A stretch of DNA of 64,000 nucleotides from Caenimonas koreensis DSM 17982. Its GTDB lineage: Bacteria > Pseudomonadota > Gammaproteobacteria > Burkholderiales > Burkholderiaceae_C. The position numbers and the translations under genes are program-made. Under the pieces are notes generated by a model. It was not told the origin of the DNA and searched no databases. It worked only from the letters and a program-made list of their open reading frames with translations. The stretch lies in contig NZ_WJBU01000015.1 of the NCBI RefSeq assembly GCF_009646335.1, positions 1 to 64,000 on the forward strand, written 5' to 3'. Below, one piece after another: positions 3,001 through 58,135 of this stretch. The first letter of the stretch is position 1, and each line of letters opens with the position of its first letter.

Positions 3001-6000
3001 TGGTGCAGTTCGCAGCGGCCGTCACACCGGGCACGAGCATCGCGCTGGCGGCAACAATCAACACGTACGCGAGCACCGGCAAAGACCGCACTACGAACTA
3101 CACGTATGACGCAGCGGGCCGGCAGATCTACGCCGTCGATTCACTCGGCACCATCACCGGCACCGTGTACGACAAGGCGGGCAACATCACCGCGAGCATC
3201 CAGTACGCCAAGCTCGGGACGGCACCCGTAGCGGGCGTGCCGCTTGCGCAGGGCACACCTGTCGCAGATGCGGCCAACGACCGCATCACGCGCATGGCGT
3301 ACGACGCAGCGAACCGGCTCGTGTTCACGGTGGATGCGACCGGCGCAGTGGCTGAGCGCAGCTATGACGGCGCGGGCAATGTGAAGAGCATCACCCAGTA
3401 CGCGAACGTGATCGACACTGCGAAGTTCAATGCGTTGAGCAAGACGGCCACGTGCGATGACATCAACGCTGCGCTGGTGAAGGCATCAACTGCCAATCGC
3501 GTGCAGGCGCAGAGTTTTGATGCGGCGAACCGGATCGCCACGACAACGGATGGTGTGGGCCACATCACCACGTACGGCTACGACGGCCTGAGCCGCTCGA
3601 CCAGCGTAACCGACAGCGGCGCAGGCATCACCGCGCGAACAACGACGTACACCTACGACGGCGCGGGCCGCACAAGCAGCGTGACCGACGCGCTCGGCCA
3701 AACCGAGCGCTACACCTATGACGGCGTGGGCAACAAACTCACGTTCCAGAATAAACGCAACGCCATCTGGACGTACGAGTACGACGCCGCAGGCCGCCTG
3801 ACCGACGAGTACACGCCCAGCGTGGACGTCACCAGCGTCACCAGTGGCCTCGTGATGACCACTGCCGCACGCGTGATCCGCACCGCCAACACTTATGACG
3901 CTGCGGGCAACCTGCTCTCGCGCACAGAGGCCGTGGGCCGGCCCGAGCAACGCACGACGAGCTATGAGTACGACGCACTGGGCAGGCAGATCCGCACGCG
4001 CTTCCCGAACGTGGCCGTGTACGTGGCCGAGACTGACGCAGCGATTGCGGTGAACGGTCAGGGCAACGTAGCCACGCGAACCGACACCACTGTCGCAGGC
4101 GGCATCTACACCGAGACCACCTACGACGCATTGGGCAACGCCATCCGCAACCGCGATGTGGGTGGTGCGCTCAGCTACAAGGTGTATGACCAGCTTGGGC
4201 GAGTGACGTACGACGTTGACGCGATGCGCTACGTGACCGGTTACACGCTCGATACGTTCGGCGGCACAACGACCCTCACGCGCTATGCGAATGCGATGAC
4301 GCTCACAGGCACAGAGACGTCGCTTAACACTGCGGACATGACCAGCGCCAAGCTCGTCAAAGACAGCGCCGCAGATCGCGTGCTGCTCACAACCTACGAC
4401 CGCATGGGCCGCGTGGACCCGGTGACAGAGCCCACCGTCGATGTGTTCGACCCTGAAGCCACAGGCGCTGGGCAGTACTACCAGGCCGGAGCGCTCACCG
4501 ACAACACCTATAACGCCTTCGGCGAGCTGATCCAGGTCGCGCGCTTCAAGGGCGCAGGCACGGCCAGCACCGCCGCCTACAACCAGTTCAACTACTACGA
4601 CAACGCGGGCCGCTTGACGGCCACCGTCGATGGCGCGAACTACCTCACGACCAACACGTATGACGTGCTGGGCAACGTGACGCAGACCACCGAATACGCC
4701 AAAGCGCTGACGGGCACGATCACAGCGGCGACCAAGCCCACACCGCCGACTGCGAGCACGACGGACCGCACCACCACCTTCGAATACGACAGCCTCAACC
4801 GCAAGAAAACAGAAACGCGCCTGAACGTCGAAGTCACGGACCAGGACACGTTCGTCACCAGCAGCACGAGCGTGGTCACGCGCTACGGCTACGACGCGAC
4901 GGGCAACGTCGTCACGACAGAAACCGCAGACGGCGTCACAGGCAATTACTACGACTTGCTCGGCCGCATCACGGCAGTGACCAAACCTGTGCGTGCGGGT
5001 GAAACATCGGGAACGATCACCCCGCTCACCGTCTACAAGCGCGACGTGTACGGCAACGCCGTCGTGCAGATCGACTACGCCGCAGGCACTGCAGCCTTGG
5101 GCGCTACGGCGGCGGATGCGAACGACCGCACGAGTTATTCCTTCTTCGACATCGACGGCCATGCGATTCGCACAGTCGATGCGAACGGAGCAGACCGCTA
5201 CGCGTCTTACGACGTGTACGGCCGCGTCGTCAAACAGTGGCAGACGCTTGGCAGCGGCACAGCCAGCGCCACCATCTTCCACGGCTTCAAATACGACGCC
5301 CTCGGCCGCCTCACCCGCGACATCACGCCCACCAACAACAGCGCAGACAGCGCAGTCGTCAGCACAGACATCAAGTACAACGCCTTCGGCGACATCATCG
5401 CCAAGGGGGTGAACGGCAGCGCCAGCGAGTACTACGACTACGACAAGGCGGGGCGACTGTGGCGCACGAATGCCGACAATGGCGTCGCCACCATCTACCT
5501 CTACGACCGCCTGGGCAACCGCACCGCGCAGATTCAAAGCTCGGGCGCTGCGTACAACGACGCGGACCTCAAGGCCGCAGGCGTCACCGCAGCAAGCGCT
5601 GCAGCAGACACTTCACTGCGCCGCACCAACACCCGCTACGACGCGTTGGGCCGTGTCACGCAGCAGTCGCGTATTGCGCCCGGCAGCGTGAGCGCTACCG
5701 TCAACCAAACCTACGACCGCTGGGGCAACGTGCTGAGAATCAGCGATGCGCGCAACGCGCAGTGGGTGACGCGCTATGAATACAACGCTAACAACCAGCT
5801 CACGCGCCAGTACCTGCCCGATGAGACAGGCGCTGCCCAACTGTCGAGTGTTGCGTACTACGACAAGATGGGCAGGCAAGTGGGCGTGCGCGATTACATC
5901 AACGCCACGGCAAGCAACCTCAACCGCATGCGCTATGACACGCAGGGCAACCTGATCGAAGAGCGTCATGCCGATGGCGGCATCGTCGCCAACAGCTACA

Positions 6001-15502: not shown

Positions 15503-16332
15503 GATGTGGAGGAGTCAATGGAATGAGCGCGTTCGGACTGCAGCAGCTCGACGGCTTTGTGCCCGCTGCGCTGGCCCAGAAATGCGTCGCAAAGAATCTC
15601 GCCGTGCGCGCTCAGGCGCATCGGCGTGTCCAGGCGATGTGTGAGCGACAGGACGTCGCCTGGCGCAAGTTGCGCGAGCGTGCCCAGGTCGATCTCGCAT
15701 GCGTCGAGTTCGACGCGCACGGTGATGAAGTGGTGCGCAATCGCATCACTGATGGGGGTCGTGGGCTCGACCGGCCCGGGTGCAATGGGGCGCTGCAAAG
15801 GCGCCGCGAGCCCGAGCGTGTCCTCCACGCAGCCCGCGTTCAACAAGATCGGCAGGCGCGCGTTCGCCAGCGGCAGCATGATCACCACGCAGCCAGACCA
15901 CGGACGCAGGCAAGCTGCATCGACGAAAAGCGGATGGTCTGTTGGCGCGTCGAGAGCGAACTGCGAGCGCAGCCTGGCAAGCAGGTCTTCCATCGCACGT
16001 GCGGCGACGCTTTGTGCGATCGATGGCGGCGTTGCTGGCTTAACGTTTGCGTCGTAGTCGTCGAAGAGCGCACGGCCCACGCATTCGGTCGCCCGAGCGG
16101 GTGATGCGAGCCAGCCCGCGGCCTCATGCTGCGCGCCCATCGGTGTCCAGTTCCAGTCGCCCGCGTCGTCAACTTCATGCGCGAGGTGGGCCAGGGCGCG
16201 GGTGCGATGCGTGTCGCCCAGCCATTCGTCGCACCACGGCAGCCACGCAGCATCGGCGCGCGCTGCGAGGGCGTCGAGTTGCACGGCGGTCCACCACCGA
16301 AGCGGCGTTGCGGTTTGCGGCGTCGTGGTCAC
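15499..16332 (-). CDS. FliM-like protein with C-terminal SpoA domain but no FliM N-terminal motif
   Basis: It lies in the fliM slot between flgE and fliN, with 4-nt overlaps on both sides. The 277-residue protein is shorter than usual FliM (about 330). Its C-terminus (ISDAIAHHFITVRVELDACEIDLGTLAQLAPGDVLSLTHRLDTPMRL) is a SpoA domain. The N-terminus lacks the LSQxEIDALL motif that binds phosphorylated CheY. The middle only loosely recalls FliM or the SctQ proteins of injectisomes. It probably forms the C-ring together with FliN; response to CheY is unlikely. Hook and rod genes in the same operon argue against an injectisome. Confidence 0.75.
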   Translation of the reverse strand: MTTTPQTATPLRWWTAVQLDALAARADAAWLPWCDEWLGDTHRTRALAHLAHEVDDAGDWNWTPMGAQHEAAGWLASPARATECVGRALFDDYDANVKPATPPSIAQSVAARAMEDLLARLRSQFALDAPTDHPLFVDAACLRPWSGCVVIMLPLANARLPILLNAGCVEDTLGLAAPLQRPIAPGPVEPTTPISDAIAHHFITVRVELDACEIDLGTLAQLAPGDVLSLTHRLDTPMRLSAHGEILCDAFLGQRSGHKAVELLQSERAHSIDSSTS

Positions 16333-56468: not shown

Positions 56469-57176
56469 ATGTTTGAGACACACACGTATGACGATCCGAT
56501 TGTCCTCGACACCGCAATCAGATCGCGATGGGCCTTTCTGGAAACAAGTTCGGCAGCTGCGGTTCTGCGATCTGTATGTCCTGAAGAGTGGAGTGATATC
56601 ACGGCCGTTTTGCGGTCGTTTTCTTTGAACCCATCGCGATGGTTGAAAGCAGGAGGCAATCGCGGCGATATCGCCAAAGAAATTGACGAAATGTTTTGCA
56701 CCAGGGGGTGGCTTGAGACCCGAGTTGATTTGGTAACGCGTGGGGTCCTTTTGTCGCGTCGAGAAGAGGTCTTGAGTGAGTTGCCGGAGATGAGGCAGGA
56801 AGGCTATCTAGTCGACAACTTCAAAGGACGTGTTGCACTTGACGTGGAATGGAACGCCAAAGATGGAAATCTCGATCGCGACTTGTCGGCATATCGCGCA
56901 TGGCATGAAGCAGGCGTTATCTCAGCCGCAGTACTGATTACCCAGGATCGGCTATCACTCAAAGCACTCGCAGAGCAATTGTGGGCTGCGCATCTCACTT
57001 CGTTACCCCCCGAAGACCGAGTTGCGCGACTGCCAATCGACTTGGGTACTTCTACGACGACCAACTTGGAAAAAGCCGCGCTCCGCGTGCGGCGTGGGGT
57101 AATGGGAACTTGCCCGCTGCTGATAGTGGCCGCTACACGGGCCACATGGAATGGAGCTCCTTACTCTGCCGACTGA
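56469..57176 (+). CDS. BglII/BstYI-family type II restriction endonuclease
   Basis: A 235-residue protein (R.BglII has 223). The core VDNFKGRVALDVEWNAKDGNLDRDLSAYRAWHE matches the BglII/BstYI catalytic segment. D116, or D125, with E127 and N129 are metal-site candidates. The expected specificity is AGATCT or RGATCY. The ATG is preceded by AAAGG with no gap and by a TACACT -10-like box 6 nt away, so the transcript may be leaderless. The gene is more AT-rich than the chromosome and converges with the methyltransferase gene, overlapping it by 16 nt. Confidence 0.9.
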   Translation: MFETHTYDDPIVLDTAIRSRWAFLETSSAAAVLRSVCPEEWSDITAVLRSFSLNPSRWLKAGGNRGDIAKEIDEMFCTRGWLETRVDLVTRGVLLSRREEVLSELPEMRQEGYLVDNFKGRVALDVEWNAKDGNLDRDLSAYRAWHEAGVISAAVLITQDRLSLKALAEQLWAAHLTSLPPEDRVARLPIDLGTSTTTNLEKAALRVRRGVMGTCPLLIVAATRATWNGAPYSAD

Positions 57177-58033
57177 AAGAGTTCTACCTGAGGGAGATTT
57201 CCTGAGGCGGCGCGACCGCGAGGGCGCATCGTGGTCCCGACACCCTGTAGCAGAGCTCGAATACGCTGTATCGAATACCCAGTCTCATCCGCCAATTCCC
57301 GAACACTCTGTCCAGCGCGGTACATCGCCTTCAGTTTTCGACCTAACGCTTCGGCTCTTTGGGAGTCGACGTGCTCATTTGGGAGTAGAGGAGGCAATAT
57401 TGGCCCGCCTGCATATCCTTTATGGACGGCTCCGCGAGGGACTACGTCGTCCGCTGCTTCATCTCCCCAAACTGTCCAGCCAGCACGTGGGTGGCGCGCA
57501 AACATTTCCAAATATGCGCCGGGTGAGCAAGACTCGATGAGCGCATATTGCTCGTCCGGCTTCCTTGAGTGCTCGCGCTTTCGCGTTTCAATCATGTTGA
57601 CTTGAGACCTGCCCGGGGCAAGGGTGCGCATCGAACCGCGAACACCGAACAACAAGAGTTCCGTCACGTTACGGAAATAGAAGCCAACGCCGCGCCCGTC
57701 TGGACCTCCATCGATGCGCCGTTTGGCCCAAACAATGTTGCTTACATAGCGAAATCCCCATGCTGCCATGACGTCCAGCCCGTCAGGCAGGAGTGCATTT
57801 GGAACCCACAGGTAGAGGTGCGCATTCTTGGCAAGGACCTGGTTAACCGGCAACGACTTGATCGAGTCGAGTGACATGGTCGAATATCTGTCGAGCCGTC
57901 GGTGTTCCGGTGCGACCTTGCCTGTGCGATTTGCGAATCGCCACGGTGGATCAGCCAGTACTGTTGAAAAGCCTCCGACGATTCGGGGCAGTGGATCTGG
58001 CGCTTGCTCTGGCCGAAGGGATCGAGAACTCAT
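57161..58033 (-). CDS. MT-A70-family adenine DNA methyltransferase with C-terminal HTH
   Basis: The 290-residue protein has the MT-A70 catalytic motif DPPW (residues 28-31, STVLADPPWRF), LYLWVPNALLPDGLDVMAAWGF and NIVWAKRRI. It probably methylates adenine-N6 in the site cut by the neighbouring nuclease. A C-terminal segment (SVRELADETGYSIQRIRALL, about residues 243-262) looks like a helix-turn-helix, possibly for autoregulation. A TATACT -10 lies 6 nt before the ATG, implying a leaderless mRNA. Its own promoter holds two AGATCT sites. Confidence 0.92.
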   Translation of the reverse strand: MSSRSLRPEQAPDPLPRIVGGFSTVLADPPWRFANRTGKVAPEHRRLDRYSTMSLDSIKSLPVNQVLAKNAHLYLWVPNALLPDGLDVMAAWGFRYVSNIVWAKRRIDGGPDGRGVGFYFRNVTELLLFGVRGSMRTLAPGRSQVNMIETRKREHSRKPDEQYALIESCSPGAYLEMFARHPRAGWTVWGDEAADDVVPRGAVHKGYAGGPILPPLLPNEHVDSQRAEALGRKLKAMYRAGQSVRELADETGYSIQRIRALLQGVGTTMRPRGRAASGNLPQVELFQSAE

Positions 58034-58039
58034 GTGGCT

Positions 58040-58071
58040 AGTATAAGCAATAAAGATCTAAAGTAAGATCT
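58040..58071 (-). promoter_or_regulatory. Methyltransferase promoter with two AGATCT sites
   Basis: Read toward the methyltransferase gene, TATACT (58045-58040) is the -10 element. One AGATCT (58054-58059) lies in the spacer, and a second (58066-58071) overlaps the -35 position. The sites are 12 bp apart within near-direct repeats (TAAAGATCTA and GTAAGATCTA). Methylation of these sites, or binding by the enzyme's HTH, could shut the promoter once the host is protected. Confidence 0.7.
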
Positions 58072-58135
58072 ATTTTCATGGCGTATATCAGCGATTTGTT
58101 GCTACTTAGAGCCAAGGCTCACAGCCTCGACCAAT

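Follow-up and report, generated by a model that had tools for sequence, protein, structure and literature searches.

The methyltransferase of a restriction-modification (R-M) system in Caenimonas koreensis seems to be controlled through its own substrate sequence. In the window, by which we mean the whole 64,000-nucleotide stretch of DNA that was analysed, two AGATCT hexamers lie 12 bp apart, start to start, on the promoter of the gene for an MT-A70 adenine methyltransferase (M) with a C-terminal HTH domain. The comparison with related loci reveals paired sites that are conserved, that accompany the HTH, that belong to M rather than to the endonuclease (R), and that overlap the promoter. In view of these comparisons, the pair very probably works as an operator of M and is tied to the HTH, and we assign a probability of about 0.77 to the idea that M represses its own promoter through this pair of its own substrate sites.

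The R-M island and its probable specificity

The R gene (56469..57176, plus strand) encodes a protein of 235 amino acids that matches PF09195 above the cut-off (E 2.6e-27). A profile built from 24 sequences of the R family matches BstYI (1sdo; E 0.0013), and the window R protein as a single query matched no PDB chain. The M gene (57161..58033, minus strand) encodes a protein of 290 amino acids that matches PF05063 (E 9.7e-27) and, with its C-terminal HTH, HTH_58 (PF19575; E 1.7e-9). The two genes are convergent, and their 3' tails overlap by 16 bp. The DPPW motif is invariant across 34 aligned M sequences including that of the window, a Foldseek search of the whole M against the PDB matched the catalytic domains of METTL3 and MTA1, and the PADLOC Type II methyltransferase model PDLC03221 (272 positions) aligns to residues 13-270 of M, so this protein family has already been catalogued. 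The G+C content of the island is about 53-58% as compared to about 60-65% in the surroundings. Among 19 purU stretches of congeners (about 1.5 kb on each side), none contained a match to R or M; lysR was present in 11 of them, separated from purU by about 150 bp or less in 10 of these 11, and was not seen in the remaining eight. Since the congeners lack R and M at this place, the two genes look like an insertion between lysR and purU. In one congener (L193), about 670 bp lie between lysR and purU (about 831-1498), perhaps another insertion at that junction. The sequence-only reading of this DNA had proposed an R-M island with a nuclease of the BglII/BstYI family, and this is borne out by the PF09195 match, the profile match to BstYI 1sdo, and the absence of the island from the congeneric purU stretches. 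A stand-alone regulator as in Acinetobacter was also considered and rejected: no candidate gene was seen between R and M or in the flanking short gaps, and the Acinetobacter gap contains another palindrome.

According to an AlphaFold2 model and to conservation, the HTH domain comprises residues 224-264 of M (57242..57364, minus strand), and the PF19575 match covers residues 227-275. In the model of M, the helices 224-239, 244-251 and 255-264 reach a pLDDT of about 90; the stretch 201-212 is of low confidence, and the linker before the HTH is probably flexible. The HTH modelled alone folds alike, with three helices, and its predicted recognition helix (255-264) includes R257 and R259. A Foldseek search of the isolated HTH against the PDB gave no match with E ≤0.001; ParB-DNA and VirB-DNA structures were among the weak matches (probability >0.9, E >0.1).

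The recognition sequence can be judged from relatives. R.Nph3I (PF09195) of phage NrS-3 cuts AGATCT, GGATCC, AGATCC and GGATCT and is blocked by 6mA, and M.Nph3I (MT-A70) makes RG(6mA)TCY (PMC10734518). M.Nph3I is 60.2% identical to the window M over query residues 22-259, in an alignment whose end runs past the M.Nph3I stop. A HTH of the window type was rejected for phage NrS-3: the neighbouring gene encodes a different HTH protein and lies downstream of the stop, and the locus is HTH-less. In PMC9723563, M.Dor12838I (likewise RGATCY) is named as the nearest characterised REBASE relative, and a BglII/BstYI-family system of Acinetobacter has RGATCY with m6A (PMC10287943). In the HTH-bearing relatives described below, 13 of the 77 RGATCY sites upstream of M are the variants AGATCC or GGATCT. 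Because the Nph3I data, the Acinetobacter system and these operator variants all point there, the specificity of the window system is, by analogy, probably RGATCY with m6A. Of the earlier suggestion that AGATCT or RGATCY is recognised, it is thus most likely RGATCY that stands, in line with Nph3I and the 13 variant sites, whereas AGATCT as the exact specificity is disfavoured by the same observations.

The paired hexamers are flanked by the M start (58033) on one side and by the purU 3' end on the other. The proximal half-site (58054-58059) falls into the spacer between the -35 and -10 regions of the M promoter, and the distal half-site (58066-58071) overlaps the expected -35 position; sequence and relatives mark them as a candidate operator, WAGATCT-N6-AGATCTW (58053..58072), and neither the half-sites nor the whole element has a strand. 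The -10 element TATACT (58045-58040, minus strand), which is supported by TANNNT in relatives, is 6 nt before the ATG and begins 8 nt after the proximal AGATCT on the M strand (minus). If a spacer of 17 bp is assumed, the -35 hexamer would be 58068-58063 and overlap the distal AGATCT. A good -35 sequence is absent from the M promoter (the best has 3/6), and a consensus sigma-70 scan of the window detected no promoter at its threshold. Judged by the position of the -10 element, the M transcript is probably leaderless.

The whole candidate operator has a single exact match in the genome. Moreover, AGATCT-N6-AGATCT occurs only once in the 4,605,942-bp assembly (genome of about 4.6 Mb), over the M promoter, and RGATCY-N6-RGATCY is present at three places genome-wide. 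The other two (G000:C40:7423-7440 and 15760-15777) are on one contig, 8 kb apart. A near-unique pair of this kind would single out the M promoter among the genomic RGATCY sites. Single-site enrichment in the window was rejected as evidence: the 11 AGATCT sites are marginal (at least 11 were reached by 5 of 100 shuffles), the 32 RGATCY sites per 64 kb are not significant (83 of 100 shuffles), and single sites are uninformative because shuffled sequences reach these counts. The two AGATCT hexamers 12 bp apart in the spacer and at the -35 position, as originally described, were found exactly there, and that they exceed chance is indicated by the uniqueness of the N6 pair in the genome and by its conservation in relatives far above expectation.

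Paired sites accompany the HTH

A first clue came from three plasmids that encode an R protein 62-64% identical to the window R and have paired sites at the same place before M: AGATCT-N6-AGATCC in the Roseovarius and Yoonia plasmids (identical stretches) and AGATCT-N6-AGATCT in the Roseivivax plasmid. Among viral M loci, of which the best 80 of 143 were taken, the four with an HTH-bearing M (L010-L013) have a cluster of two or three RGATCY sites in front of it; in L010 (GGATCT-N6-AGATCC) neither hexamer is AGATCT. Genome contigs were scanned with a profile of the HTH-bearing M, the best 80 of at least 580 were taken, and further plasmid records were added. As only the best 80 loci were taken per scan, the sample leans to close relatives. 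A second viral scan gave almost only the same contigs and was left out of the counts. Among 398 sampled Pseudomonadota genomes, 18 had an M at E 1e-60, the C. koreensis genome itself included; the other 17 matches cover the catalytic domain only, to query residue 209 at most, and these genomes were not added to the counts.

In this way, 180 M loci were classified, 41 with and 139 without the HTH. The HTH was called by a seven-sequence profile, whose accepted matches all scored 41.1 bits or more and whose best rejected match scored 5.7, with none between, and the start codons of the relatives' M genes were chosen by a script. The non-redundant HTH set has 40 loci, L092 having been dropped as a copy of L091, and the HTH-less set has 126, after removal of six loci with less than 100 bp upstream and seven near-duplicates. 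L027, with only 24 bp of upstream sequence, was unusable as a control, and in the HTH-less L020 two sites 51 bp apart were counted from the start of the alignment, not of the gene.

Two or more RGATCY sites are present within 100 bp upstream of the M start in 37 of the 40 HTH loci but in only one of the 126 HTH-less loci (Fisher p 2.8e-32), and at least one site is found in 39/40 and 11/126, respectively. A wider count from -150 to +30 gave two sites in 40/41 HTH loci as compared to 2/139 HTH-less loci; we prefer the stricter 37/40 because in the wider count a site within the gene lets in L126 and L127. All eight loci from which the idea was formed have the pair (L091 and L092 are identical there), and so do 30 of the 33 HTH loci found later. 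In the genome-contig scan by itself (best 80 of at least 580), the pair is present in 26/29 HTH loci and in 1/51 HTH-less loci (L159). An unbiased count of upstream 6-mers puts AGATCT and the overlapping AAGATC joint first, with 37/40 HTH loci each, as compared to 3/126 and 7/126 HTH-less regions. The co-occurrence of pair and HTH spans Pseudomonadota, Actinomycetota and one Chloroflexota assembly. Thus, both the view that recognition sites in the M promoter are a regulatory element and the proposed involvement of the C-terminal HTH, two ideas of the sequence-only reading, gain support from the conserved pair and its co-occurrence with the HTH. The L021 locus, even with an R protein 76% identical to the window R, has an M without HTH and without sites. 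It is hardly conceivable that the pairs reflect chance or the composition of AT-rich promoters: the window has hardly more single AGATCT sites than expected and the upstream regions of the HTH loci are indeed lower in G+C (0.50 vs 0.55), but Markov resampling of these same regions yields a mean of 0.46 of 40 HTH loci with two sites where 37 were observed, and AGATCT-N6-AGATCT is unique in the genome.

The exceptions among the HTH loci are L106, which has no site, and the near-identical Actinomyces oris loci L126 and L127, which have one. In L106, the position of R257 is occupied by T, and no other HTH-bearing M lacks RGATCY in the upstream 100 bp; 39 of the 40 readable HTHs have R257, L131 being cut off before that residue. 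The L106 upstream region contains an inverted repeat, TTCCGG-attg-CCGGAA, and for L106:1671-2504 no BglII-type R was found in the stretch examined. L126 and L127 have kept one AGATCT, and their distal position reads AGACCC where the related L124 has AGATCC. A BglII-type R was not found in the stretch examined of either locus, and their operator has perhaps decayed, perhaps after loss of R.

A quick catalytic-domain tree of all 41 HTH rows and, out of the 139 HTH-less rows, the 50 with the highest identity to the window requires five changes of the HTH label. The HTH group of this tree also takes in the HTH-less L015, L016, L017 and L128, which have no site within 100 bp; the number of HTH losses is not firm since the branch supports there are mostly 81-93. 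Counting against the proposed autoregulation, the Actinomycetospora loci L130, L132 and L133 have an HTH-less M without the pair and a separate small HTH gene downstream (about 3790-3950). This gene encodes the same recognition helix, TGYSIGRVRRLL, and L130 and L132, but not L133, have one AGATCT at or just past the end of M. The separate gene is a possible source of the fusion, and the stand-alone HTH protein may read similar sites.

Proposed control of the methyltransferase promoter

R and M are convergent in 14 of the 41 HTH loci; R precedes M in the same orientation in nine, is divergent in four and follows M in the same orientation in one, and it was not found in the stretch examined in 13. 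Only four of the 28 R genes have the pair upstream, all of them divergent and sharing the gap with M, and single RGATCY sites precede a few other R genes. In the window, RGATCY is absent from 150 bp upstream of R to 30 bp inside the gene. A control of R by the sites was therefore rejected, 24 of 28 R genes being without an upstream pair and the remaining four sharing M's gap. Pairs 6-24 bp apart occur 39 times within 100 bp before M in the HTH loci and six times elsewhere in 267,609 bp, whereas the HTH-less loci have none before M and 21 elsewhere in 917,953 bp. In the sequences compared, the pair follows M rather than R, whatever the gene order.

Even the nuclease partner seems to be exchangeable for the regulated methyltransferase. 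In the plasmids of Arthrobacter (L180), Kocuria (L182) and Herbiconiux (L183), the gene adjoining M encodes an AAA_5 ATPase, the neighbour in L181 is annotated as AAA family ATPase, and the next gene in L182 is McrBC-like (PF10117, E 9.6e-18). All four loci have at least two sites upstream of M, irregularly spaced in L180. In these Actinomycetota plasmids, AAA_5 neighbours stand in place of a BglII-type nuclease (L182:1-2725, L180:3968-5740, L183:1097-2824).

The spacing of the sites in the HTH loci is mostly 12 bp (17 cases) or 19 bp (11), followed by 23 (3), 20 (2) and 24 bp (2); one three-site locus has spacings of 18 and 16 bp, and the irregular L180 one of 55 bp. In 18 of the 40 HTH loci, 6 or 7 nt separate a TANNNT from the start codon, and gaps of 5-8 nt are seen in 19 HTH loci as compared to a shuffle mean of 4.3 and to 2/133 HTH-less loci. 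Leaderless transcripts fit the HTH loci because TANNNT is so near the start codon. In 17 of the 19 loci with such a start-near -10, 6-10 bp lie between the proximal half-site and the -10 downstream of it; the two exceptions are L106 (no site) and L115 (irregular). Loci of the 19-bp class have their distal site 25-27 bp upstream of the -10 and just upstream of the -35, and L120 has TTGACA between its two sites. Rhodobacterales and the 23-24-bp class differ: to the eye, their two sites seem to stand on either side of the -10 or the start region, with a ribosome-binding site after them. As a free search for the -10 over all positions scores hardly above shuffles (0.58 vs 0.42), the promoter argument rests on position. 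The pair shifts along the promoter yet stays on it, and this matches the need of an occluding repressor.

It could be argued that M is instead an activator that binds beside the -35, recruits RNA polymerase and provides positive feedback during establishment. The distal site of the 19-bp class indeed adjoins the -35 on its upstream side, a place from which activators can work, and the window promoter has a poor -35. Yet the proximal site 6-10 bp before the -10 in 17/19 loci and the pairs that seem by eye to bracket the -10 in some lineages both suggest occlusion, and the fused-HTH methyltransferases EcoRII, SsoII and Ecl18kI repress their own genes. We therefore regard activation as very improbable.

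A further possibility is a pure methylation switch in the style of CfrBI, LlaDII and AhdI, in which m6A itself lowers the binding of RNA polymerase and the HTH is incidental. Such control by promoter methylation is known for these three systems (PMC12707154), and the promoter sites, variants included, fit the likely substrate. However, this leaves unexplained why the pair is absent from HTH-less M genes (1/126) and why L106, in which R257 is replaced, has no site; moreover, a fixed element should hold its position, and that of the pair with respect to the -35 and -10 varies from lineage to lineage. As the pair is tied to the HTH and varies in its position, binding of the M protein is favoured over a pure effect of methylation, which we consider unlikely. 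The further idea of the sequence-only reading, that host-protected DNA would repress or reset the promoter, is a conjecture, and the binding of M may or may not be sensitive to methylation.

Harder to separate from autorepression through substrate sites is an ordinary repressor operator, in which the HTH has an AGATCT-like specificity of its own, the overlap with the substrate is neutral and methylation changes nothing. The 77 RGATCY sites upstream of the 40 HTH loci comprise 64 AGATCT, nine AGATCC and four GGATCT, and their flanks are mostly A/T (71/77 before and 69/77 after the site); both the prevalence of AGATCT and the flanks go beyond what RGATCY requires and would suit such an operator. 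On the other hand, 77 of the 81 NGATCN words in the same upstream 100 bp are RGATCY and only four are other GATC words, and the 13 AGATCC or GGATCT variants are as a methylation site would allow. This argument is weak, since the HTH may share the tolerance and L126 and L127 have AGACCC, and it is partly circular, the sites having been counted as RGATCY. Still, a coincidence of the HTH motif with the substrate of the enzyme would need explaining. All in all, we find a neutral operator possible but doubtful.

Under autorepression through substrate sites, M, aided by its C-terminal HTH, would bind the two neighbouring substrate sites over the core promoter, likely with one M molecule next to the other, and RNA polymerase would be shut out; R would stay outside the control of M's operator. 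In an unmarked new host, M would be spread over thousands of unmethylated RGATCY sites, and the promoter would stay open. Once the genome is marked, free M would accumulate and fill the paired operator, M synthesis would stop, and incoming DNA would not become over-protected. Competition by genomic sites is plausible, since the density of RGATCY in the window extrapolates to about 2,300 sites genome-wide. In this scheme we infer repression, cooperativity, titration and any effect of operator methylation. That operator methylation or titration by unmethylated genomic sites tunes the expression of M is a tentative suggestion, somewhat more doubtful than probable. The same caution applies to the broader idea that the fused HTH might read the enzyme's own substrate sites, so that writer and reader would be joined in one protein and M synthesis would track the RGATCY methylation of the genome, in a portable unit kept beside a BglII-type nuclease or McrBC-like genes.

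Relation to known systems and implications

The LlaDII system of Lactococcus lactis has two recognition sites in its M promoter, both of which are needed, and a constitutive R. Its M is a cytosine methyltransferase with another site, unlike the window M, and we know of no link of LlaDII to a C-terminal HTH. By analogy, LlaDII is probably the nearest precedent for the window operator; its control by promoter methylation touches M only (PMC12707154), as the proposed control in the window would. This 2025 review separates control by promoter methylation (CfrBI, AhdI, LlaDII) from dual-function HTH methyltransferases (Ecl18kI, SsoII, EcoRII). Among the known solutions for a newly arrived R-M system are a C protein, antisense RNA, HTH methyltransferases that have an operator of their own, and promoters sensitive to methylation (PMC12707154).

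CfrBI resembles the window system in that its own recognition site in the M promoter sets the activity of the promoter (PMC12707154). There, the promoters are divergent and overlapping and the effect is attributed to methylation, whereas the window R is convergent and without upstream RGATCY, and the sites are tied to the HTH. SsoII, Ecl18kI and EcoRII share with the window system the fusion of a methyltransferase to an HTH, and theirs represses its own gene; for EcoRII, repression is described only when the substrate sites are methylated (PMC12707154). However, their regulatory domain is N-terminal and that of the window M is C-terminal, and SsoII and Ecl18kI are cytosine methyltransferases while the window M is an adenine methyltransferase. 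SsoII has as its operator a 15-bp palindrome that does not resemble the CCNGG substrate (PMC6100179), whereas the window operator is the likely substrate site itself, twice; given RGATCY as the specificity, the operator of the window system is not distinct from the methylation site.

Nph3I of phage NrS-3 has the same combination of MT-A70 and PF09195, with RGATCY m6A (PMC10734518), but Nph3I and other HTH-less MT-A70/PF09195 pairs have neither a C-terminal HTH of the window type nor paired sites upstream of M. Acinetobacter baumannii A118 again has a BglII/BstYI-family nuclease and RGATCY m6A, and its M is held down about 50-fold by an HTH repressor that is a separate gene (PMC10287943). On a related Acinetobacter plasmid, the gap before M is without RGATCY and holds another palindrome. 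The window system seems to have both a fused HTH and an operator that consists of the enzyme's own likely sites, and thus to join known kinds anew. A literature search that covered titles and the openings of abstracts, mostly without subscription papers, retrieved no description of the M operator.

A standing question about new R-M systems is how they spare the host at first and later keep from over-protecting invaders. In the window system, the operator of an HTH methyltransferase and a methylation-sensitive promoter seem to be fused. The system is compact, and a feedback on genome-wide modification would be testable with one promoter, one protein and Dam, which modifies the same adenine. Beyond C. 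koreensis, the paired sites hint at the operators of related HTH proteins, and they may provide a sequence rule for finding regulated R-M modules.
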